Below, piece by piece: positions 13,064-17,427 of a stretch of DNA of 25,251 nucleotides. The notes below the pieces were generated by a model. The model was not told where the DNA came from, did not search any database, and saw only the letters and a program-made list of their open reading frames with translations. The stretch covers positions 1 through 25,251 of IMG/VR virus record IMGVR_UViG_3300037193_001807; one strand, given 5' to 3'. The stretch's first letter is position 1. Each line of letters starts with the position of its first letter. The position numbers and the translations under genes were made by a program. The DNA is from a virus.

Positions 13064-13639
13064 ATGTCCGACGAGAACACGACCGAGGCTCCGGCCGACG
13101 TCGACGGCAGTGACCTGGGCCTGACCGACGCCGAGGCCGAGCAACTCCTGGCCGACGCGGTCGCACGAGGTGACGCCGAACCTGCCGACACGGCGGGCGG
13201 TGGCACCGATTGGAAGGCCGAGGCCGAGAAGTGGCAGAAGCTCGCGCGCAAGCACGAGGGCCGCGCGAAGCAGAACGCGGAAGCGGCGACCAAGGCCAGG
13301 ACCATCGAGCAGCAGGTTGCCGACCTGCAGGCTCAGCTCGCGGAGCGCGACAAGCGCGACGTGGAGCGCAGTTCGCGCCTCGCCATGGCCAGGCTCGATG
13401 CCCAGCTCGCGAAGGCCGGCATCGATCGTGGCGACGTCGAGGGCCTGCTCAAGCGGATCAAGGGCGCGGACCTGCTCGCAGACGGCGAGCCGGACGACGC
13501 CGCGATCGGCGAACTGGCCGAGTCCCTGACCAAGATCGCCGGCCGTGCCACCCCCGACCCCGATCAGGGGGCGAAGGGCGGTAAGGCCCCGCTCGACATG
13601 AACCAGTTGATCCGGCGAGCAGCCGGCATCACCAGCTAG
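13064..13639 (+). CDS. Capsid scaffolding protein
   Basis: ATG 13064 with GGGAG at 13053-13057 gives 191 residues. The acidic, Ala-rich N-terminus leads to a long charged helix (residues ~50-115: WKAEAEKWQKLARKHEGR, then QQVADLQAQLAERDKRD), a coiled coil typical of internal scaffolds, followed by a helical C-terminal domain with a basic end (IRRAAGITS) that could dock to the capsid protein. Its position just before the major capsid gene is diagnostic. No separate prohead protease is found in the window, as in SPP1-type heads where the scaffold leaves intact. Confidence 0.85.
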   Translation: MSDENTTEAPADVDGSDLGLTDAEAEQLLADAVARGDAEPADTAGGGTDWKAEAEKWQKLARKHEGRAKQNAEAATKARTIEQQVADLQAQLAERDKRDVERSSRLAMARLDAQLAKAGIDRGDVEGLLKRIKGADLLADGEPDDAAIGELAESLTKIAGRATPDPDQGAKGGKAPLDMNQLIRRAAGITS

Positions 13640-13692
13640 GCAGCCCGGCGGCACGGCCGTGGCCTGCTGCGCATCAACCACAGGAGGTACCC

Positions 13693-14649
13693 GTGCCGTT
13701 CAACAACCTGACGTCCCGCACGGACGTCGAGGCCCTGATCCCGGAGGAGGTCTCCCGGCGGATGCTGGGCAAGGCCACAGAGGATTCGGCCACGCTGCAG
13801 CTCTTCCGGCGCATCCCGGTGTCGCGGAACCAGATCCGGTTCCCGATCTTGTCGGCGCTCCCGGTCGCGTACTGGGTGACGGGTGACACCGGCCTGAAGC
13901 AGACCACCGAGATGGCCTGGGACAACAAGTTCCTGAACATCGAGGAACTTGCCACGATCATGCCGGTCCCGGAGAACGTGGCCGCGGACGTGGAGATCAA
14001 CGTCTGGGACAACGCCGAGCCGTACATCGTCGAGGCGTTCTACCGGGCGCTCGACAGCGCGGTGTTCTTCGGTACGAACGCACCGGCCAGCTTCCCGACG
14101 AACGTGCTGGCGGCCACCATCGCGGCCGGCAACACGGTCACCGAGGGGACCGCGGCCGCGACCGCGGGCGGGTACTTCGGCGACATCGACAACCTGATCT
14201 CCGCGGTCGAAGAGGACGGGTTCGACGTCTCCGGCTTCGTCGCCTCCCGGGCGGTGCGGCGCAAGCTGCGCGCGGCCCGCAACGCGGACGGCGAGCGGCT
14301 CGACCAGGGCCGTCTGACCGGTGACCTGAACTCGCTCGACGGGTCCCCGATCGCGTACCCGATGCGCGGTCTCTGGGCCACTGGCGGCGGCGCGGGCAGC
14401 AACGTTCGGATGTTCGCCGGCGACTGGGCGAGCCAGTTCGTCGTGGCCGTGCGCGAGGACATCACGTTCAAGCTGCTCGACCAGGCCGTGATCCAGGACA
14501 ACACCGGGGCGATCGTCTACAACCTTGCCCAGCAGGACATGGTCGCGATGCGGGTCAAGTTCCGCGTCGGCTGGCAGGTCGCGAACACGATCAACAACGA
14601 CAACACCAACGCGTCGACCCGCTACCCGGCCGCCGCGCTGGTGTTCTGA
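13693..14649 (+). CDS. Major capsid protein (HK97 fold)
   Basis: GTG 13693 follows AGGAGG (13682-13687) with 5-nt spacing and yields 318 residues. It opens LTSRTDVEALIPEEVSRRML, typical of a capsid protein without a long delta domain; then a P-domain and spine helix, GYFGDIDNLISAVEEDGFDVSGFVASR in the A-domain, and the C-terminal VAMRVKFRVGWQVAN...YPAAALVF strand pair. This is the common actinophage HK97-fold type. A short CACGGCCGTG palindrome lies in the upstream gap. Confidence 0.92.
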   Translation: MPFNNLTSRTDVEALIPEEVSRRMLGKATEDSATLQLFRRIPVSRNQIRFPILSALPVAYWVTGDTGLKQTTEMAWDNKFLNIEELATIMPVPENVAADVEINVWDNAEPYIVEAFYRALDSAVFFGTNAPASFPTNVLAATIAAGNTVTEGTAAATAGGYFGDIDNLISAVEEDGFDVSGFVASRAVRRKLRAARNADGERLDQGRLTGDLNSLDGSPIAYPMRGLWATGGGAGSNVRMFAGDWASQFVVAVREDITFKLLDQAVIQDNTGAIVYNLAQQDMVAMRVKFRVGWQVANTINNDNTNASTRYPAAALVF

Positions 14650-14664
14650 TCGGAGGACTGAGAC

Positions 14665-14901
14665 ATGGCTGACGAGCGGAAGCCTGGCGAGGTCGTCGAC
14701 CTGGCCGACGGCACCAAGTACGGCTACTGGGGCGCGTCCCCGGTGCACAAGGACCGCAAGGACTACACCGTCGAGGTGCAGGGCCCGATCGCGGAGGAGG
14801 CCTCGCAGGGCGGTGCTCGCGCTGAGGGCGTCGGCACGGTCGACAAGTCCGCCGGTGACCGCCAGGCCGTCCGGCGCACTAGGAAGGAGAACGACCAGTG
14901 A
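14665..14901 (+). CDS. Small hydrophilic protein after the capsid gene
   Basis: ATG 14665 follows GGAGGA (14652-14657) with about 7-nt spacing and gives 78 residues. It begins with beta-forming sequence (GEVVDLADGTKYGYWGASPVH) and ends in a polar, probably disordered tail. In this position phages place head-decoration, head-completion or connector proteins; the sequence does not decide between them. It overlaps the next gene by GTGA. Confidence 0.6.
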   Translation: MADERKPGEVVDLADGTKYGYWGASPVHKDRKDYTVEVQGPIAEEASQGGARAEGVGTVDKSAGDRQAVRRTRKENDQ

Positions 14902-15299
14902 GCGCCCCCCTGGTCCGGGTCATCGAGGAGTCCGTCCCGGCGGTCACGACCGCAGGCAACAGCGACGACACCGTTCTCGCGCAGTCCCCGTACGCGGGGA
15001 CCGTGAGCGCCGTGCAGTACGTCCCGGAGGCGGCGATCACCGGTGCGGCCACCAACAACCGCACCGTGTCGCTGGTCAACAAGGGCCAGGCGGGCTCCGG
15101 CACGACGGTCGTCGCGACCCTCACCTTCGCATCCGGTACCAACGCGACCGCGAACAACGAGGTCTCGCTGACCTTGTCGTCGACTGCGGCTGATCTGGTC
15201 GTGGCCGAGGGCGACACCCTGCAGTGGCGCTCGATCGCGAACGGCACCGGCCTCGCCGACCCGGGCGGCATCGCCCGAGTCACCGTCAGCCGCACCTGA
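14898..15299 (+). CDS. Beta-rich head protein, probable capsid decoration
   Basis: GTG 14898 (GTGA overlap) gives 133 residues. The protein is Thr/Ser/Ala-rich and strand-like throughout (GTVSAVQYVPEAAITGAATNNRTVSLVNKGQAGSG is interrupted here; the remainder alternates VATLTFAS, NEVSLTLSS, VAEGDTLQWRSIANGTG). It resembles the jelly-roll-like, trimeric decoration/head-fibre proteins that actinophages encode after the capsid gene. It probably sits on the outside of the head. The assignment is from fold pattern and position. A 17-bp inverted repeat begins 6 nt after its stop. Confidence 0.65.
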   Translation: MSAPLVRVIEESVPAVTTAGNSDDTVLAQSPYAGTVSAVQYVPEAAITGAATNNRTVSLVNKGQAGSGTTVVATLTFASGTNATANNEVSLTLSSTAADLVVAEGDTLQWRSIANGTGLADPGGIARVTVSRT

Positions 15300-15304
15300 C
15301 CCCA

Positions 15305-15375
15305 TCCACTCAAGTTCGACGGAGGTATCGACGTGGGCGTATACGCGGTCGTTGCCGACGTCGAACTTGAGTGGA
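15305..15375 (+). promoter_or_regulatory. 17-bp perfect inverted repeat enclosing the ribosome site and start codon of the next gene
   Basis: Bases 15305-15321 are the exact reverse complement of 15359-15375. The left arm is in the short intergenic gap, the right arm lies in codons ~9-14 of the connector gene (VELEW region). The 37-nt loop holds most of the Shine-Dalgarno (GGAGG 15321-15325), and GTG 15333. An inner 4-bp CGAC/GTCG pairing can enclose the start codon. Such an RNA stem could modulate translation of the connector gene or act as a processing or attenuation site. Confidence 0.7.
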
Positions 15376-15758
15376 ACCGGGACGTACCAGCCGAGGCCGA
15401 ACCGCACGTGAACTGGCTCATCGACAAGGCCGAGGCCGTGCTCGACACGATCCCCGGCCTGGCCGCCCGCATTACCGCTGGCACGACCACAGCTTCGCAG
15501 CTCAAGTACGTGGTCGCCGCCATGGTTGTCCGCGTGCTGCGCAACCCCGAGGGGAAGCGTTCGGAGACCGCGGGCGACTACTCCTACGAGCTGGCGACCG
15601 GCCCGTCCGGTGAGTCGGGCATGTCCCTGACGGCGGCCGAGCGGCGCCTACTCGGTGTCAGTGGGCGGGCGGGCTCGATCCCGCTCATGGACGACGCGCT
15701 CGAGTACCCCATCAAGAACTACCGGTGGTGGGAGCCGGGCGAGGTGTGGCTGCCATGA
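15333..15758 (+). CDS. Head-tail connector protein (Gp15/Gp19-like)
   Basis: GTG 15333 after GGAGG (15321-15325) gives 141 residues. The N-terminal helical domain (VNWLIDKAEAVLDTIPGLAARI...LKYVVAAMVVRVLRNPEG) followed by SETAGDYSYELATGPSG, LTAAERRLLG and a WWEPGEVW end is the recognisable pattern of the actinophage Gp19/Gp15/Gp42-type head-tail adaptor that binds under the portal ring. Its start lies in the loop of a long inverted repeat. The stop overlaps the next gene by ATGA. Confidence 0.85.
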   Translation: MGVYAVVADVELEWNRDVPAEAEPHVNWLIDKAEAVLDTIPGLAARITAGTTTASQLKYVVAAMVVRVLRNPEGKRSETAGDYSYELATGPSGESGMSLTAAERRLLGVSGRAGSIPLMDDALEYPIKNYRWWEPGEVWLP

Positions 15759-16096
15759 GCCTGCTTGACGCCGCCCCGGAGACCGTCACGGTCTATCCCC
15801 AGGAGACCTACACCGACTCTCGGGGCGACGAGCGAGTCCGGCCGGCGGCCACGGGCGTGCCCGTGCGGGGCTGGATGCAGCCGATGTCCCAGCTGCGCCT
15901 GTTCCCGTCCGTGGATGCCACGCAGCAGCAGCGCGTGTACTCCACCTGGCGGTTCATCGCCCGAGACGCCCCGCTCGGGATCTGGTCGCGGGTCGAGTGG
16001 CGGGGTATGTCGCTGTCGGTGCGTTCCGGCCCTGAGCCGCGGGGCTACTCCGGCGCGACGACCCACGTCACTGCCCTGTTGCAGGAGGAGCGGTAG
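15755..16096 (+). CDS. Head-tail stopper / connector protein
   Basis: ATG 15755 overlaps the upstream stop (ATGA), giving 113 residues. Beta-rich with ETVTVYPQETYTDSRGDERVRPAA, VRGWMQPMS, VYSTWRFIARDAPLGIWSRVEWRG and a C-terminal strand, the usual build of small phage stopper (SPP1 gp16-like) proteins that close the neck after packaging. Function is inferred from size, fold pattern and order. The next gene begins directly after its stop. Confidence 0.7.
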   Translation: MSLLDAAPETVTVYPQETYTDSRGDERVRPAATGVPVRGWMQPMSQLRLFPSVDATQQQRVYSTWRFIARDAPLGIWSRVEWRGMSLSVRSGPEPRGYSGATTHVTALLQEER

Positions 16097-16387
16097 ATGG
16101 CTGAGGTTTACGCCGACACCGACGAAGTCGTAGCGCACCTGTCCGGGGTGATCGACGCCGTGCATGACACCGCTCAGGCCGGCGGCCGGCGGGCCGAGGC
16201 ATTGCTGCGTGCCCACCGCGCGGAGGGACACGCCCGGATCACGGTCACTCGCGGGTCCGTGGACTCGTTTGTGACCCTGAACGACGAGCGGGGGCAGCGG
16301 GCCGCGGCTGCGATCGAGTTCGGTCGTTCCGGCGGGCCCACCGGCGCCATGCAGGGCATCTTCGTTCTCCGACGAGCGTTCGACTGA
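16097..16387 (+). CDS. DUF5403-type neck/tail-completion protein
   Basis: ATG 16097 follows the previous stop without a gap; 96 residues. The segments GHARITVTRGSVDSFVTLNDERGQRAAAAIEFGRSGG carry the DUF5403 signature (a helical N-terminus, then a strand pair and the Glu-Phe-Gly-Arg turn). In actinophages this family lies between the head-tail connectors and the tail terminator, where HK97 gp10-like proteins are found. It ends in TGATG with the next gene. Confidence 0.75.
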   Translation: MAEVYADTDEVVAHLSGVIDAVHDTAQAGGRRAEALLRAHRAEGHARITVTRGSVDSFVTLNDERGQRAAAAIEFGRSGGPTGAMQGIFVLRRAFD

Positions 16388-16809
16388 TGGCCCGGTGGGC
16401 AGGTGAGGCCGAGCAGGTCCCTGTTCTGCTGCTCCGCGCCGCCCTGCCTGACGTGACCATCCGGTCGGGCATCCCGGACGACCTGACCAAGTTCCTTCCG
16501 CTGATCGTGGTCCGCCGGGTCGCCGGCGCGTCCGTCGCTCCGAGGTTCTGGGACGGGCCGTCGATCAACGTGCAGTGCTGGTCGGACGCAACCACCGAGC
16601 TCGATCCAGTGTCGGCGGCCTCTGAGCTGGCGGACCAGGTGCGTCGAGTGCTGTGGGAGGCCTGGGACAACCAGGTCGTGACCTCGGCCGGGCACATCGT
16701 GCAGCTGCGCGAGTCGCAGGGGCCGATGGAGGTACCGGACATCGACCTTCCCCGACTTGGCCGATACGTAGCCACCTACCAGTTGCGGGTCCGCACCCCT
16801 GCGGCCTGA
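16387..16809 (+). CDS. Tail terminator protein
   Basis: ATG 16387 overlaps the preceding stop by 1 nt; 140 residues. An N-terminal helix, a central strand block (FLPLIVVRRVAGAS, PSINVQCWSDA), a helix over SAASELADQVRRVLWEAW, and a C-terminal strand with GRYVATYQLRVRT match the alpha/beta build of tail terminator proteins (lambda gpU / SPP1 gp17 type) that cap the tail tube and join it to the head. The gene precedes the major tail protein, as usual. A terminator-like hairpin follows. Confidence 0.75.
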   Translation: MARWAGEAEQVPVLLLRAALPDVTIRSGIPDDLTKFLPLIVVRRVAGASVAPRFWDGPSINVQCWSDATTELDPVSAASELADQVRRVLWEAWDNQVVTSAGHIVQLRESQGPMEVPDIDLPRLGRYVATYQLRVRTPAA

Positions 16810-16823
16810 GGGCCGCACCCGTT

Positions 16824-16848
16824 CCACGTCCCCGCTTCCGGGGCGTGG
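16824..16848 (+). terminator. Terminator-like hairpin before the major tail gene
   Basis: CCACG, an unpaired T and CCCCG (16824-16834) pair with CGGGG/CGTGG (16839-16848) around a 4-nt loop. CCTTTCG follows, giving a short T-run. It sits between the tail terminator gene and the major tail gene, so it may separate their transcription or stabilise the ends of their messages. Confidence 0.6.
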
Positions 16849-16881
16849 CCTTTCGTCATGCCCCGTTGAAAGGAACCTGTC

Positions 16882-17427
16882 GTGGCACTGACCGACTCCG
16901 CCGTGCTCATCCCGGGCACCGGCTACCTGTACACCGCCCCGGCGGAGACGGCGATCCCTGCGTCGCTCACCGCTCCGGCCTCCCCCTGGGAGAACCTCGG
17001 CCACACCTCGCGCGAGGACGGCCTCACGATCACCCGTGACGGTGGCGACACGGAGATCATCGGCACCTGGCAGAACCCGAGCCTGCGGGAACGCCGGGAG
17101 CCGACCAACTTCGCGATCACGGCCTTCCTGCACCAGGTCGACAACGAGGTGCTGGAGATGTACTTCGGCCCCGGCGACGTCGACGTCGCGGATCAGTTCG
17201 GCGTGACCTCAGCCGTGGCCGCCATCGAGCGCGCGCTCTTCGTTCGGATTGTGGACGGAACGACCGAGGTCGGGCTGTACGTGCCGAAGGTGTCGATCTC
17301 CAGCGAAGACGACGTCGAGGTCGACGTGGAGGGCTTCCTTGCCTTCCCAGTCCGCATGACCGTGCTCCAGGTGACCGGCTCCAACCTGATGACCTGGATC
17401 GGCCCGGAGCTCGGCCTCCAGGTGTAA
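16882..17427 (+). CDS. Major tail protein (tail tube)
   Basis: GTG 16882 with AAAGGAA about 9 nt upstream gives 181 residues. The sequence is beta-rich: GTGYLYTAPAET at the start, WENLGHTSREDGLTITRDGGDTEIIGTWQNPSLRERREP, then AITAFLHQVDNEVLEMYF, VGLYVPKVSISSEDDVEVD and a final VTGSNLMTWIGPELG. The order is that of actinophage tube proteins (lambda gpV-like fold), which stack as hexamers to form the non-contractile tube. It is flanked by hairpins on both sides, suggesting a separate abundant transcript. Confidence 0.88.
   Translation: MALTDSAVLIPGTGYLYTAPAETAIPASLTAPASPWENLGHTSREDGLTITRDGGDTEIIGTWQNPSLRERREPTNFAITAFLHQVDNEVLEMYFGPGDVDVADQFGVTSAVAAIERALFVRIVDGTTEVGLYVPKVSISSEDDVEVDVEGFLAFPVRMTVLQVTGSNLMTWIGPELGLQV

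Follow-up and report, generated by a model that had tools for sequence, protein, structure and literature searches.

How a tailed phage obtains few connector and hundreds of capsid copies from neighbouring genes is seldom explained. The question is raised here by a 25,251-nt stretch of viral DNA (positions 1 to 25,251 of IMG/VR record IMGVR_UViG_3300037193_001807, hereafter the window), in which a long inverted repeat encloses the start of a head-to-tail adaptor gene. Protein searches of IMG/VR gave three close relatives, L001 (87% protein identity), L002 (75%), and L003 (54-55%), referred to together with the window as clade A. The features concerned are as follows.

13693 to 14649, plus strand: major capsid protein gene (phrog_10, PF05065; 65% to the Arthrobacter phage Bridgette group)
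14665 to 14901, plus strand: small 78-aa gene between capsid and adaptor; its L001 relative directly precedes the hairpin
14898 to 15299, plus strand: 133-aa gene directly upstream of the adaptor gene, decoration-like by position, with no family match
15297 to 15299, plus strand: TGA stop of the next gene upstream; the 5' arm follows after 5 nt and the adaptor start after 33 nt (by sequence)
15305 to 15321, plus strand: 5' arm of the hairpin, intergenic, its final base being the first G of GGAGG (exact complement, compensatory changes in relatives)
15321 to 15325, plus strand: Shine-Dalgarno (SD) sequence GGAGG of the adaptor gene (by sequence)
15324 to 15356, plus strand: inner fold capping the stem, pairing 15324-15327 with 15353-15356 and 15329-15335 with 15344-15351 (minimum-energy and centroid folds, pairing probabilities)
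15333 to 15758, plus strand: head-to-tail adaptor gene, GTG start, 141 aa, N-terminus conserved in L001-L003
15359 to 15375, plus strand: 3' arm of the hairpin, coding, at codons 9-15 of the adaptor gene, peptide region DVELEW (exact complement, compensatory changes)

The identity of the connector gene, proposed in the first-pass annotation from the sequence, agrees with its matches to phrog_137 ('head-tail adaptor Ad1', E 8.4e-22) and to PF09355 (Phage_Gp19), as well as with its place between the capsid gene and other connector genes. The late module of the window runs from terminase (7930) through portal (9805), a MuF-like gene (11307), and scaffold (13010) to the major capsid gene, and the adaptor is followed by a gene at 15765, Neck1 (16097), and a tail terminator (16387). 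The 15765 gene has no family match, and its label 'stopper' rests on position. The terminase matches are to actinobacterial phages. According to this order, the adaptor follows the capsid genes and precedes other low-copy connector genes, and the earlier placement of the gene between two abundant head proteins has to be dropped.

As for the repeat itself, 15305-15321 (TCCACTCAAGTTCGACG) is the exact reverse complement of 15359-15375, a perfect match of 17 bp as originally described, and with mismatches allowed it grows to 28 nt at 86% (15305-15332 with 15348-15375). Among exact inverted repeats in the window with a loop of at most 80 nt it is the longest, followed by repeats of 13 and 12 bp, and the longest exact repeat in Markov simulations (n = 12) does not exceed 12 bp, which confirms that the match is beyond chance. 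The 5' arm is intergenic, as claimed; the 3' arm, however, had been assigned to codons 10-14 and actually begins at the last base of codon 9 and ends at the first of codon 15. Similarly, most of GGAGG (all except its first G, which belongs to the 5' arm) and the GTG do lie between the arms, but this region is not an open loop, with both SD and start predicted to be paired. A nucleotide search of phage records gave no match, and an Rfam search returned two miRNA models only, both far under their gathering scores (27 vs 97 and 21 vs 110 bits).

A site after the capsid genes would suit partial termination, and the hairpin could in principle be a transcription terminator or attenuator between capsid and connector genes. 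The short loop and the T run after the stem that define an intrinsic terminator are, however, both missing: the loop of 37-55 nt is far too long, GGAACCGGGACG comes directly after the 3' arm, and a terminator scan has no entry for the hairpin, all of which makes such a function extremely improbable. Exact inverted repeats with shorter loops were seen elsewhere, on the G001 contig (locus L071, about 33546-33593 and 35168-35209) and the G003 contig (locus L073, 12616-12659); these are 15, 16, and 16 bp long with loops of 18, 10, and 12 nt, respectively, and are possibly terminators.

Energy minimisation of 15290-15400, the first check suggested for the repeat, gives -55 kcal/mol against -38.6 +/- 3.6 for shuffled sequences (z -4.6), with 0 of 200 shuffles as low. 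The predicted ensemble has the entire start codon and most of the SD in pairs, with a pairing probability of about 1 at G15321, G15324, and G15325 and of 0.94-0.97 at the GTG. The inner fold at 15324-15356 pairs part of the SD and the start codon, and its details are not kept among the relatives. Computed with folding energies that leave out ions, proteins, and co-transcriptional folding, the cost of opening positions -15 to +3 is 22.0 kcal/mol in the window and falls to 8.7 kcal/mol when the 5' arm is held single-stranded; for L003 the start region costs 23.2 kcal/mol, and 7.8 without the 5' arm. L001 and L002 have SD-to-start costs of only 12.7 and 11.0 kcal/mol (8.5 and 12.6 without the 5' arm), close to those of ordinary genes, so that by these energies the stem there encloses the start more than it buries it. 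Thus, the computations place the SD and/or the start codon inside a stable helix in the window, in L003, and in clades B and C described below, and do so more weakly in L001 and L002.

Conservation was assessed within clade A. The hairpin is present at the same adaptor start in 3 of 3 close relatives, and in the scanned contig stretches of L001 and L002 it is the longest exact inverted repeat (17 and 15 bp, respectively), as in the window; in L003 it consists of 10 exact pairs with a bulge and wobble pairs. When viral contigs were scanned for the pattern of these arms, the only ones recovered were L001 and L002. Since MAFFT did not place the arms correctly when run automatically on the start regions, they were aligned by hand, leaning towards structure and with one bulged base omitted from L003; on this four-sequence alignment 93% of cells are paired, compared with 30-43% when the arms are slid. 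In four pairs both partners have changed: U-A/C-G, C-G/U-A, C-G/A-U, and C-G/U-A, of which the last is seen as U-G too. Between the window and L001 the changes in the coding arm are mostly synonymous (GAA CTT GAG to GAG CTG GAG), and the intergenic arm follows them. Arms paired across sequences are generally weaker than each sequence's own pairing, although L001 and L002 can in part exchange theirs, and permutation by arm swapping gives a modest result (750 of 20000). Comparison of homologues for pairing lost in one arm and not compensated in the other, named at the outset as what would refute the proposal, was survived by the hairpin, its relatives carrying compensatory changes. Because four stem pairs change on both sides and G-U pairs occur, the comparative evidence identifies the hairpin as a conserved RNA structure; the same G-U pairs speak against a repeat that acts at the DNA level.

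The gene directly upstream differs within the clade. The 133-aa gene is present in L003 and absent from L001 and L002, in which the small gene runs straight into the hairpin. Its end in the window, just before the hairpin, looks as if the gene had been inserted or lost at that point. With the upstream gene differing while the hairpin stays, the element appears to travel with the adaptor gene and not with its upstream neighbour. Readthrough of the stop codon was also considered, the TGA at 15297 being in frame with the GTG at 15333 in the window, and was rejected, as this frame is not kept in L001 or L003.

About 30 further adaptor homologues, picked by protein similarity and not by structure, were scanned as well. 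Mostly they have no start-spanning repeat, and most relatives, including mycobacteriophages, have no hairpin; the exceptions are L043 and L057, with start-spanning repeats of 12 and 11 bp and with the SD, or the SD and the start, within the stem. Relatives of these two sequences confirmed two clades. Clade B comprises two sequences (L043 and L081) with both SD and start in the stem, while clade C comprises 12 sequences (L115-L130) with an SD-containing helix; by their IMG numbers, the contigs of L115, L125, and L128 appear to derive from isolate genomes. The clade C pairing joins the bases immediately ahead of the start, up to base -1 where the 5' arm ends, to Glu-Arg-Pro/Ala/Ser-Leu codons. 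At its third base the Arg codon has T, C, or G, faced by A, G, or C to match, and where the Pro codon becomes Ser or Ala the facing bases change along. In the clade C count, likewise from arms aligned by hand and with L125 omitted (its register is shifted by one), 95% is paired, 4 doubly changed pairs fall in 10 cells, and 0 of 500 shuffles are as good; the clade's own arms pair better than all 20000 permutations. Like that of clade A, the start-covering hairpins of clades B and C show compensated pairs, each in a register of its own.

In GC-rich DNA the energy of start-spanning duplexes did not discriminate when computed along whole contigs, so the measure adopted was exact helix length. Within the 278 SD-plus-ORF starts of the loci, a control set that includes false genes, the five longest start-spanning helices all belong to adaptor starts (Fisher p 4e-5 by locus and 0.006 by lineages, with start totals counted by hand). 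On the protein tree A, B, and C fall in three separate, well-supported clades, and relatives that lack the hairpin lie beside A and B. Judged from these sequences, repeated gain of the hairpin fits the tree, and one gain followed by losses would be possible too. Prophage loci from about 790 actinobacterial genomes gave no further hairpin-bearing case among readable starts. Because most adaptor homologues do without such a hairpin, their sequences indicate that it is not a general need of adaptor genes.

Weaker structure was seen at other connector starts. The adaptor start of Mycobacterium phage JacoRen57 (L078, position 5276) has no long exact stem, costs 17.8 kcal/mol to open, and ranks top among that phage's tested starts; weaker start occlusion of this kind may, by such energies, be more widespread. 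Stopper starts in annotated phages have a median cost of 12.7 kcal/mol, against 7.1 for capsid and 5.7 for tail assembly chaperone starts, as would be expected if connector genes of low copy number initiate weakly in general. In Mycobacterium phage prophiGD43A-4 (L099, around 2459-2500) the annotated TTG start of the adaptor looks wrong, and the ATG at 2495 (MAYAIPSDV) fits the homologues better; a separate hairpin (GGAGGGGGC...GCCCCCTCC) lies there between capsid gene and adaptor.

Two further explanations are affected by clades B and C. An RNase III-type processing site or mRNA stability element, already raised by the first-pass annotation, would separate the abundant capsid message from the connector genes, and RNase III could plausibly act on the nearly perfect duplex of 17-20 bp that the window, L001, and L002 have. 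Cleavage of the 3' arm, however, would disrupt the reading frame of the adaptor, and clades B and C, with no more than 8-12 contiguous pairs in their stems at the adaptor start, still have the start codon region covered, so the feature shared by the clades is start coverage and not duplex length. Processing is therefore the weaker proposal and a quite unlikely one. Alternatively, the hairpin could be a neutral by-product of template switching that copied one arm into the other, repeated switching keeping the arms alike with no selection. Template switching does produce near-perfect arms like those of the window and L001, but a hairpin that persists down to 54-55% protein identity, with G-U pairs and compensation arising piecemeal, and that has counterparts at this gene start in two other clades would be unexpected under neutrality, and this origin is considered highly unlikely.

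According to the evidence above, the best explanation, and a fairly probable one, is a translation-limiting hairpin that closes the SD and start of a low-copy adaptor gene. The element would be a cis-acting RNA hairpin in the late structural-gene mRNA, in which the intergenic arm pairs with adaptor codons 9-15 and shuts the SD and start codon inside a stable structure. Members of the adaptor family form a ring of about a dozen copies per particle, a low-copy product beside the abundant capsid. The hairpin is read as a brake on translation because a start region covered by a stable helix should bind 30S subunits less readily and because the adaptor is expected to be needed in such small amounts. 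Adaptor translation would be held low or conditional relative to the upstream capsid genes, presumed to lie on the same mRNA. Of the earlier proposal that the repeat sets a low copy number, this translation-limiting role remains as the best-supported reading, and the location between two abundant head proteins does not. Since the arms lie in different registers in three clades, each with compensatory changes, the position over the start, and not one inherited sequence, may be what is selected. Translational gating of the adaptor could accordingly be a selected design, gained more than once by actinobacterial siphophages to match a dozen-copy ring to hundreds of capsid subunits, a broader proposal that is put forward tentatively, with doubt slightly prevailing.

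The start might become accessible by rare spontaneous opening, by initiation right after transcription and before the 3' arm exists, or with the help of upstream ribosomes. The last of these gives a more specific version of the translation-limiting hairpin, in which a ribosome finishing the upstream gene pulls the 5' arm open and frees the adaptor start. The upstream stop of clades B and C is 16-25 nt ahead of the start, with a single case outside 16-19, and when the footprint of a terminating ribosome is masked the opening cost falls in 14 of 14 cases (e.g., from 22 to 8, 23 to 0.5, and 22 to 5 kcal/mol), bringing it below 8 kcal/mol in about half of them. The cluster A phages that lack the hairpin have their upstream stop 3-9 nt from the start, which would also permit coupling. 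In the window, however, 33 nt separate the stop from the start, and masking the footprint leaves the cost practically unchanged (22.0 to 21.9 kcal/mol). Likewise, it changes nothing in L001 (stop at 47 nt) and L002 (42 nt), and the value of 1.9 for L003 comes from a chance TGA 9 nt before the start and not from the real upstream stop. Thus, an upstream stop is computed to free the start to a varying degree in clades B and C and not in the window, L001, or L002, and this modelled geometry supports release by upstream ribosomes in those two clades and not in the window's own. Translational coupling is likely in clades B and C by the same calculations; as an account of the hairpin in general it is possible and somewhat doubtful.

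A different way of using the hairpin would be a choice between transcripts, in which long transcripts carrying the 5' arm are silent and a promoter in or just after this arm gives a short, translated one. Actinobacteria translate leaderless transcripts well, and with the clade C 5' arm ending at base -1 such a transcript would be leaderless there. A precedent is established in T4 gene e, where the transcripts made late do not contain the 5' portion of the structure (PMC3014915). However, a promoter scan of 13500-17000, restricted to sigma-70-like promoters so that other types may escape it, found none, and a window RNA that lacks the 5' arm would need to start in the last few bases before GGAGG. 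Such a switch is accordingly regarded as unlikely.

For the translation-limiting hairpin, the presence of a compensating structure over a connector start in three clades points to translation as one control of connector amounts. Adaptor-start hairpins are short elements suited to reporter tests, and plain spotting of inverted repeats combined with comparison of homologues can reveal unannotated regulatory RNAs in phages.

Among known systems, start-sequestering hairpins are established for T4 genes e, soc, and 49, in which a helix over the start limits 30S binding (PMC3014915). The likeness lies in a phage mRNA with the SD and/or start codon in a helix, and in its recurrence, since similar leader structures are predicted in several phages related to T4 for gene e and the hairpin described here is likewise found in relatives. 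In contrast to e, soc, and 49, the present gene encodes a head-to-tail adaptor, belongs to a late structural operon of another phage group, and is described from sequence; moreover, three clades of one gene carry the hairpin in different registers. Unlike gene e, it has no promoter in the sigma-70-like scan that would give a transcript free of the 5' arm. Coupling hairpins of polycistronic mRNAs, e.g., those of the RNA phage MS2 genes, hide a downstream start in a stem that is opened by upstream ribosomes. Clades B and C fit this type by geometry, whereas the stop in the window is too far upstream for the footprint to open the stem. The maturation gene of MS2 is translated only before its leader folds, and a scheme of this kind would give few initiations per transcript, which would suit a low-copy structural protein. 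The open literature searched (subscription journals being outside this scope) holds no report of a start hairpin at a head-to-tail adaptor gene, and Rfam has no family for one. Thus, start-sequestering hairpins of phages are already known, while the adaptor gene as their site and the recurrence in three clades appear to be new.
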